Shown here one piece after another: positions 43,849 through 47,208 of a stretch of DNA of 64,000 bases. The DNA comes from Subtercola boreus (GTDB lineage Bacteria > Actinomycetota > Actinomycetes > Actinomycetales > Microbacteriaceae). The translations under genes were made by a program, and so were the position numbers. Numbering within the stretch: the stretch's first letter is position 1; every line of letters begins with the position of its first letter. Location of the stretch: assembly GCF_003399635.1 (NCBI RefSeq), contig NZ_NBXB01000041.1, positions 62,001 through 126,000 of the forward strand. Reading direction: 5' to 3'. The notes beneath the pieces were generated by a model that did no database searches, had not been told where the DNA came from, and worked only from the letters and a program-made list of their open reading frames with translations.

Positions 43849-44571
43849 TCAGCCCGCGTCGTGCAGCACGGAACGAAGCAGCACCGCGCCCGTCTCGCCG
43901 GACACGATCGACACGGCCGTGATGTCGGAACGCCGGATGCTCGTCGTGGCGGTCGGCGTCGCCGTCGTACCGGGCCCCGACGTCCATGAGGCGACCTGCG
44001 TCGCCTCACCCCTCCGGTCGGTCACCAGCATCGCGTAACTCCTCGCCGTACCGCTGCCGACCTGCCCCTCGTAGGTGCAGGTCCAGTCGATGCGGGTGCC
44101 CCAGGGCTCCTCGCCGAGCACCGCAACGGCGCTCAGCGGGCTCTGTACCTCGGCCGTGAAGGTGAGCCGGTCGTCCTGCGAGGCCGTTACGGGTGCGACC
44201 GTCACCGGCGACAGCGAGACCACGAGCGCGACGGTCACCGCCGCAGCCACGGCGAGGATGCCCGCAGAGGTGAACACGCGGCGACGGAGCCTCGCGCGCC
44301 GCGCCCGCGCCAGCAGCCGCGGGAGGAGTTCGGCCGGCACCGTGGCCTCGACCGGACCCTGAACCAGACCGACCGCCTCGGCACGAGCGACAGACGCGAG
44401 CAGGCCCGGCATGCCGGCGAGGTCGGCGAGCGCCGCACGACAGTCCGGGCATCCGGCGACGTGCTGCTCGTACTCGTGTCGCTCAGCCGGGGCGAGCGAG
44501 CCGAGCACGTAGGCGGCATCCCAGTCACGGAAGCGGTCGTCCGGACCGATGGCGTCTTCGCGCGCGTTCAT
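43849..44571 (-). CDS. Zinc-finger anti-sigma factor
   Basis: 240 residues. The N-terminal zf-HC2 domain holds H-x3-C-x2-C in HEYEQHVAGCPDC. A transmembrane helix (AGILAVAAAVTVALVVSL, about 115-135) leads to an extracytoplasmic domain containing RLTFTAEVQSPLSAVAVLGEEPWGTRIDWTCTYE. Its ATG overlaps the sigma factor stop by four bases. It holds the ECF sigma factor inactive at the membrane until a signal arrives. The zinc site suggests redox sensing, which would agree with the Rieske gene next door. Confidence 0.88.
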   Translation of the reverse strand: MNAREDAIGPDDRFRDWDAAYVLGSLAPAERHEYEQHVAGCPDCRAALADLAGMPGLLASVARAEAVGLVQGPVEATVPAELLPRLLARARRARLRRRVFTSAGILAVAAAVTVALVVSLSPVTVAPVTASQDDRLTFTAEVQSPLSAVAVLGEEPWGTRIDWTCTYEGQVGSGTARSYAMLVTDRRGEATQVASWTSGPGTTATPTATTSIRRSDITAVSIVSGETGAVLLRSVLHDAG

Positions 44572-45106: not shown

Positions 45107-45131
45107 TACGAGACGTCGGCCAGAAAAGTTC
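45107..45131 (-). promoter_or_regulatory. ECF-type promoter of the sigma/anti-sigma operon
   Basis: On the minus strand GAACTT (45126-45131), a 13-base spacer and CTCGTA (45107-45112) precede the sigma gene by 35 bases. The same GAACTT-N13-CTCGTA pattern reads in the opposite direction at 45142-45166. ECF promoters commonly carry GAAC at -35 and CGT at -10. Confidence 0.78.
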
Positions 45132-45141
45132 ATACTCGGGT

Positions 45142-45166
45142 GAACTTCCTGTGGGGCGTTCTCGTA
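45142..45166 (+). promoter_or_regulatory. ECF-type promoter of the Rieske operon
   Basis: GAACTT (45142-45147), a 13-base spacer and CTCGTA (45161-45166) point toward the Rieske gene, 65 bases from its start. The mirror-image copy drives the sigma gene; the two -35 boxes are only 10 bases apart. Control by the neighbouring sigma factor is strongly implied. Confidence 0.78.
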
Positions 45167-45804: not shown

Positions 45805-46617
<813 letters not shown>

Positions 46618-46737: not shown

Positions 46738-47208
46738 CTAGGGAATGCGCCAGTAGTCCTTCCCCCCGGTCAGCAGGTTGCGCTCGTTGATCGTCGGAGC
46801 AGATGCTGTGCCGAGGAGCACCAGATCCCATGTCCCCGACGGCACCGAGCGGCTCACTCCGGACGCCCAGAGCGGCACGTTGTCAGCTCGGTAGATGACA
46901 ACATTGCCATCACTCTGGAGGCTGATCTTCGAAGCACCACGACCGTGGGTCTGTGAATGCCACAGCGCCCGGCCACTGTCGTTGTAGAGCACCCGGTTGC
47001 CGTCGGTCTGGAAGACGAGCTTGGAATTGTCGGTGCGGGATTCCACCCAGAATCCGCCCAGCCCGTACTCGACGAACCCGCTGGCGGAGCTCCATTTGTA
47101 CTCTGCCAGCGTGCCGTCTGCATGAGCGGCTTGAGGCACGAGTGCCCCGGCGACCAGCACAGTTGAAATGAGAGGCGCAGCAATCAGCGCACGGATATGT
47201 TTTTTCAT
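46738..47208 (-). CDS. Secreted bulb-type-lectin-like protein
   Basis: 156 residues with a signal peptide (cleavage near AHA-D, about 31). The mature protein has two segments matching the mannose-binding Q-x-D-x-N-x-V-x-Y motif of bulb lectins: FQTDGNRVLY and LQSDGNVVIY. A third copy is degraded. GC is clearly lower than that of neighbours, and codons such as AAA and GAA are more frequent, suggesting recent acquisition. It may bind mannose-rich glycans, in bacteria sometimes as an antibacterial lectin. Confidence 0.75.
   Translation of the reverse strand: MKKHIRALIAAPLISTVLVAGALVPQAAHADGTLAEYKWSSASGFVEYGLGGFWVESRTDNSKLVFQTDGNRVLYNDSGRALWHSQTHGRGASKISLQSDGNVVIYRADNVPLWASGVSRSVPSGTWDLVLLGTASAPTINERNLLTGGKDYWRIP

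Follow-up and report, generated by a model that had tools for sequence, protein, structure and literature searches.

A putative divergent promoter pair of a SigL-like ECF sigma factor between its own operon and a Rieske-DUF2231 operon in Subtercola boreus

The structurally well-studied sigma factor SigL of Mycobacterium tuberculosis and its anti-sigma factor RslA form the described system to which the locus considered here is closest. The specificity of SigL at the promoter positions -12 and -11 is set by His54 and Asp60, and G is preferred at -11, according to the cited part of the work (PMC6372665). Upon oxidation, RslA releases its zinc, after which its binding to SigL is weaker, and the SigL targets named in the cited part of the same study are cell-wall and polyketide genes (PMC2877774). 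Moreover, SigL is a regulatory target of the protease Rip1; both proteins are important for growth when iron is low, and Rip1 also when zinc is low (PMC10449499, in the part cited).

Here, we describe a locus of Subtercola boreus, in which homologous genes for a sigma factor and a zinc-binding anti-sigma factor adjoin, as in the SigL-RslA system. The stretch 45107-45166 of the window, i.e. of the 64,000 nucleotides of DNA that were analysed, is highly likely to be a divergent promoter pair, from which the linked SigL-like sigma factor would drive its own operon and an operon for a Rieske lipoprotein and a DUF2231 membrane protein. The -10 regions share with those recognised by SigL the CG just upstream of T(-12) (PMC6372665, in the part cited). 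Likewise, TGAAC-N17-CGTn precedes sigL in 12 of 13 loci of a family (f10) that was taken as mycobacterial. However, none of these 13 loci has a divergent Rieske gene or a divergent site. In the EcfG/PhyR system, too, one sigma factor drives two divergent units from its promoters (PMC8103513, in the part cited), but the proteins of that system are unrelated and the second unit at the Subtercola locus is an effector operon and not a regulator. The sigma/anti-sigma pair is thus of a known type, whereas the literature searched contained no report of a Rieske-DUF2231 operon as a target of SigL or of any ECF sigma factor, although an earlier mention may exist; in the portions of the candidate papers that were covered, Rieske proteins are mentioned in tables, away from sigma factors.

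The two divergent operons

The sigma factor contains the sigma regions 2 and 4 (PF04542 and PF08281) and scores above the cut-off of NF007227, which together with PRK09645 we take to stand for SigL; an anti-sigma gene lies downstream and TGAAC-N17-CGTn upstream of its gene (Table 1). The start of the anti-sigma gene overlaps the sigma stop codon by 4 nt (ATGA). Judged from these features, the pair is a homologue of SigL-RslA. A point against the promoter assignment is the -11 base, which is A in all 24 Subtercola promoters (T(-12)A(-11)), whereas the M. tuberculosis protein favours T(-12)G(-11) (PMC6372665, in the part cited). In the alignment, the specificity residues His54 and Asp60 are replaced by Asn47 and Asn53 in the Subtercola sigma factor. 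Since the residues at these positions vary across the SigL family, the replacement is read as a matter of specificity and not of membership. A small residue at position 53 is paired with A at -11 in 12 of 14 loci, which belong mostly to one clade and amount to three independent pairs, and sigma factors with Asp at the equivalent position occur also with T or A at -11. The link between residue 53 and the -11 base is attractive, but a lead only.

Table 1 Features of the locus and two sets of Rieske loci used for comparison
Feature	Position or loci	Strand	Details
SigL-like ECF sigma factor, 167 aa	44568..45071	-	PDB 6dv9_F (SigL), E 1.9e-48; NF007227, 211.9 bits, cut-off 202
RslA-like membrane anti-sigma factor, 240 aa, zf-HC2	43849..44571	-	PDB 3hug_B, E 1.2e-19; PF13490; HxxxCxxC; membrane helix by eye
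Putative SigL-type promoter, sigma/anti-sigma operon	45107..45132	-	TGAAC 45132-45128, N17, CGTA 45110-45107; exact match; core kept in 12/12 Subtercola
Putative SigL-type promoter, Rieske-DUF2231 operon	45141..45166	+	TGAAC 45141-45145, N17, CGTA 45163-45166; core kept in 12/12 Subtercola
Predicted start, sigma operon	G45097	-	11 nt after T of CGT; 26-nt leader
Predicted start, Rieske operon	A45176	+	56-nt leader; placed likewise from the apparently leaderless genes
Rieske [2Fe-2S] protein, 165 aa	45232..45729	+	PF00355, E 5.5e-16; RR-containing (Tat-like) signal, lipobox LAAC, both cluster-ligand motifs
DUF2231 membrane protein, 270 aa, four long predicted helices	45805..46617	+	PF09990, 27.3 bits, cut-off 26.4
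Apparently leaderless Rieske loci (eight Amycolatopsis, one Streptomyces radicis)	L127, L136, L138, L140, L144, L148, L154, L165, L169		
N17-bearing Rieske loci away from sigL	L114, L133, L146, L155, L162, L175, L176, L178, L187		

The best profile match of the Rieske protein is 5cxm (E 2.3e-18), presumably the cyanobacterial plasma-membrane protein PetC3. The domain is shared with this protein and with Rieske proteins of the bc/b6f type; unlike the latter, the Subtercola protein is lipoprotein-like and the next gene encodes a DUF2231 protein and not cytochrome b. The cluster motifs CxH and CxxH, the RR signal and the lipobox cysteine are all present, and R9, R10, C31, C111/H113 and C127/C129/H130 are invariant in the 18 aligned sequences. 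The DUF2231 protein, which passes the gathering score of PF09990 by a narrow margin, has three histidines (H8, H13 and H77) that are invariant in 12 sequences. Its structure model (mean pLDDT 67.5) gave no Foldseek match at E <= 0.001, and its VIA matches resemble generic helix bundles. It is because of the Rieske ligands and the conserved histidines, and not of any structural match, that the two proteins are read as probably being an electron-transfer pair at the outer membrane face. The arrangement with the sigma factor also provides a hint at the function of this uncharacterised pair.

Two observations were made in passing. Six-base repeats at 46186-46230 (TCTGCG-like, by eye) encode a Ser-Ala stretch in the linker of the DUF2231 protein, and the length of this linker varies strongly among the relatives. 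Directly beyond the DUF2231 gene, 46738-47208 on the minus strand encodes a secreted-looking protein that resembles lectin-like bacteriocins; its match to NF033557 (E 2e-19, 70 bits) is far below the curated cut-off of 275.

The divergent promoter pair in Subtercola

An earlier note on this DNA had described two promoters with the same boxes and the same spacing and with 10 bases between their -35 boxes, and exact matches confirm these boxes and distances. GAACTT-N13-CTCGTA is present at 45107-45131 on the minus strand and at 45142-45166 on the plus strand, the two copies facing outwards and being separated by 45132-45141. No further exact copy exists in the window, and 100 dinucleotide-preserving shuffles of the window gave a mean of 0.00 and a maximum of 0. 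A scan of the genome returned the divergent pair alone from 3,848,592 bases, while allowing up to one mismatch yielded 12 sites versus 5 for a reversed control pattern. However, the note had taken GAACTT-N13-CTCGTA as the target motif of the sigma factor, and this has to be corrected: judged by comparison, the core recognition motif is TGAAC-N17-CGTn, which is common to the SigL family.

Indeed, TGAAC-N17-CGTA is the sole part that is invariant in both promoters of the 12 Subtercola genomes searched, all of which have the two divergent sites as well as the Rieske gene. That all 12 letters of the boxes agree is to some extent peculiar to this species and its closest sister (L009 and L010). The TT after GAAC is present in 12/12 genomes on the sigma side and is unconserved on the Rieske side, where the commonest letters reach 6/12 and 5/12. 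The T preceding CGTA occurs in 11/12 and 12/12 of the two promoters, respectively, whereas the C preceding that T (TCGTA) is found in only 6/12 and 8/12. The spacers are mostly variable across the genus, with both cores intact. Beyond the -10 region, the Rieske promoter reads CGTAG.TAC..GTAG, in which the letters shown are present in 12/12 genomes, except for the first G after CGTA (11/12).

The two inner boxes could also be seen as AAGTTCA-N8-TGAACTT, that is, as the palindromic operator of a dimeric transcription factor rather than as parts of two promoters. By eye, they form an inverted repeat in the window whose 7-bp arms match perfectly and are spaced by 8 bases, and the gap between the GAAC cores is 10 in 9 of the 12 Subtercola genomes. 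However, this gap is 11 in one genome and 46 in two, and in the latter both cores and the CGTA ends are intact. Across 37 loci with two sites, the gap ranges from 4 to 129 and is 10 in ten of them, while the inner spacer peaks sharply at 17, and the outer CGTA parts are conserved as well as the inner arms. The operator was rejected on the grounds that the inner spacer is constant but the distance from core to core is not, and we regard it as highly improbable.

Under the two-promoter reading, the transcription start was placed 11 nt after the T of CGT because nine Rieske genes look leaderless (Table 1): in each of them, the RR signal begins at an in-frame ATG exactly 10 nt after CGT, with no stop. 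At the predicted -1/+1 positions, the Subtercola promoters read TG on the sigma side and TA on the Rieske side (12/12 each). The T(+1)G(+2) core recognition element described in the cited part of PMC6372665 has no counterpart in a preference for T at the matching place of the sigL promoters outside the genus. The purines at that place outside the genus may reflect the ribosome-binding site.

Conservation beyond the genus and size of the regulon

For a wider comparison, 82 distinct sigL loci were compiled from the best matches in 150 genomes of the family and 296 of the class, from the genus search and from named Rieske loci. The family and class searches contributed the best-scoring 30 loci each, because of which the sample leans to close relatives; the named Rieske loci are the top-scoring 80 from a larger number of matches. 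Duplicates (L039, L040, L041 and L113) were left out of the counts, as were Rieske loci with fewer than 300 bases upstream (L130, L149, L163 and L168). Two loci whose Rieske gene is not divergent (L076 and L082) were classed as having neither partner, and the Rieske gene of L012, L059 and L065 was recognised by tblastn.

Upstream of sigL, TGAAC-Nn-CGT with n = 17 occurs in 67 of the 82 loci, and each of the other spacers between 8 and 28 in at most 6. The same peak is seen upstream of Rieske genes near sigL (N17 in 36/38; other spacers from 8 to 28 in at most 6). These roughly 100 natural SigL-type promoter candidates (67 + 36) may be useful for work on promoter recognition by ECF sigma factors. 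A divergent site is present in 41/43 sigL loci with a divergent Rieske or DUF2231 gene versus 5/39 of the others, with the control spacers 12, 15, 19 and 22 giving 7, 0, 2 and 0 of 43 and 0, 1, 0 and 0 of 39, respectively. The count includes L189 as site-positive, though its Rieske gene is 1.8 kb away. Two loci (L055, which has DUF2231, and L126) have divergent genes and lack the divergent site. In a tree of the 82 sigma factors, the Rieske arrangement is found in the Microbacteriaceae, in a separate group of Amycolatopsis and Streptomyces radicis and at single loci of Frankiales and Pseudonocardia; when counted against the loci with DUF2231 alone, the Rieske label requires three changes. When corrected for this tree, the association between site and gene is not significant (5.4 pairs agree and 1.0 disagrees; median sign-test p 0.22) because there are so few independent changes.

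The conservation in the genus and beyond, together with the co-occurrence, lends support to two further claims of the note, namely that the linked ECF sigma factor uses the sites as promoters and that the Rieske-DUF2231 operon is its output. The sequence itself shows the promoter-like sites and how they are conserved, the families of the genes and which of these features occur together, and from this we infer dependence on the sigma factor. Given the conserved core, the N17 peak and the way in which the divergent site tracks a Rieske or DUF2231 gene on that side, direct control of the Rieske lipoprotein-DUF2231 operon by this factor is very probable.

The -35 elements of ECF promoters are generally alike, and another ECF sigma factor with a similar motif could act at the locus as well or might even be the one that mainly serves the Rieske operon. 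A first search of the genome for relatives of the sigma factor gave 23 candidate stretches, one of which reached E <= 1e-25, and an N17 site is also found at some Rieske genes away from sigL (9/61). This signal is weak, as N16 also occurs in 9/61; the site of L133 stands 618 nt before the Rieske domain and those of L162 and L176 are possibly at coding positions. All nine genomes with such a locus encode a SigL-like protein at E <= 3e-36, as do, at E <= 1e-25, 20 of the 31 genomes searched among those of the 52 loci without a site, and the link of the distant sites to the sigma factor is only suggestive. Against another sigma factor stands the tracking of the divergent site with Rieske/DUF2231 beside sigL (41/43 versus 5/39). 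The base after CGT, which is the same in both promoters of 25/32 loci, points in the same direction, but 12 of these loci belong to Subtercola, and the agreement outside the genus is 13/20 and not significant (permutation P 0.11). A second sigma factor as the main activator is therefore considered improbable, and the linked SigL-like factor is preferred.

A comparison within Agromyces also speaks for a dependence on the SigL-like factor. In Agromyces ramosus, the Rieske site is kept, and sigL is found elsewhere (not within 4 kb) with an N17 site of its own. The related A. salentinus and A. bracchium have neither a Rieske site nor a sigma match better than 1e-15. At four loci (L057, L073, L075 and L088), no Rieske gene was found and a divergent DUF2231 gene carries the site, so that the steadier partner at these loci may be DUF2231. 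For two of the five site-positive loci among the others (L071 and L078), the product of the divergent gene looks exported by eye. Finally, sigL lacks the usual promoter at L060, L066 and L080, where a nearby gene is YceI-like by eye.

The exact core TGAAC-N17-CGTA occurs at 15 sites in the genome. In a rough reading of open reading frames, 12 of the 13 sites other than the pair are unconvincingly placed, most of them overlapping likely coding frames, while the reading left some, such as L099, undecided. One core site, L105 (G000:C16:57174-57199), lies 70 nt before a flavoprotein-like gene and over the 3' end of a globin gene, both named by eye, and is doubtful as a promoter because of this overlap. 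In a relative (G001, two contigs), two of the five core sites are the pair; the remaining three comprise one at the beginning of a likely reading frame and two within likely coding frames. The 121 sites with TGAAC-N17-CGTK are not distinguishable from the coding background; for counts of CGTG, a reversed pattern is an unfair control because N17 places AAC and GTG in one frame, which lets coding matches (Asn...Val) inflate these counts. A large regulon was rejected, as no exact core site in the genome apart from the pair is clearly placed as a promoter, and the regulon looks local, save for sites with other -11 bases. With its clear SigL-type sites confined to one divergent intergenic region, this environmental relative could offer a clean test bed for a sigma factor of the SigL type. 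In another genome, an exact core site (L248, G004:C1:358755-358780) stands directly before a palindrome that resembles the IdeR/DtxR iron-box motif; for the protein encoded downstream, the other 11 genomes gave no match at E <= 1e-10, and it falls into no Pfam family.

Proposed circuit and inducing signal

In the circuit that we propose, the membrane-bound RslA-like anti-sigma factor would hold the sigma factor until a signal releases it, possibly by loss of zinc upon oxidation, by regulated proteolysis or by both. The freed sigma factor would direct RNA polymerase to TGAAC-N17-CGTA on both strands. Its own operon would be amplified by positive autoregulation, with the co-made anti-sigma factor acting as a brake, and the operon for the exported Rieske lipoprotein and the DUF2231 membrane protein would be turned on.

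A possible addition to this explanation, and one which falls somewhat short of an even chance, is that the anti-sigma factor senses oxidants via its zinc site and that the Rieske-DUF2231 pair discharges or senses the same redox state of the envelope. Such a redox-responsive envelope circuit is plausible, given that the output is an iron-sulfur protein and that RslA of M. tuberculosis behaves accordingly, with oxidation costing it zinc and part of its hold on SigL (PMC2877774, in the part cited). The HxxxCxxC motif (H37, C41 and C44) is kept in 12/12 Subtercola anti-sigma factors, and the pattern follows just downstream of sigL in 78/82 loci, counted as matches in any frame, of which the 12 Subtercola sequences were read out. 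However, three of the four zinc ligands of RslA are kept; His25 of RslA aligns to Asp12, and a His at the matching position is not conserved among the Subtercola anti-sigma factors. Moreover, the importance of SigL and Rip1 under low iron, and of Rip1 under low zinc as well, makes a metal signal equally possible (PMC10449499, in the part cited). A protein of the Peptidase_M50 (site-2 protease) family is encoded in the genome, but likewise in all 14 control genomes. With the zinc motif kept but the fourth ligand of RslA not, oxidant and metal stress are both candidates for the inducing signal.

A far-reaching extension, which we consider unlikely, would be that Rieske-DUF2231 has been a core output of the actinobacterial SigL branch since early times and, besides being an effector, serves as the envelope redox sensor that feeds back on RslA, with the near-touching promoters competing for polymerase and giving a switch-like response, and with the mycobacteria having lost the original output and rewired SigL. 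The combination of Rieske-DUF2231 with SigL was seen in the Microbacteriaceae, in Amycolatopsis and in Streptomyces radicis.
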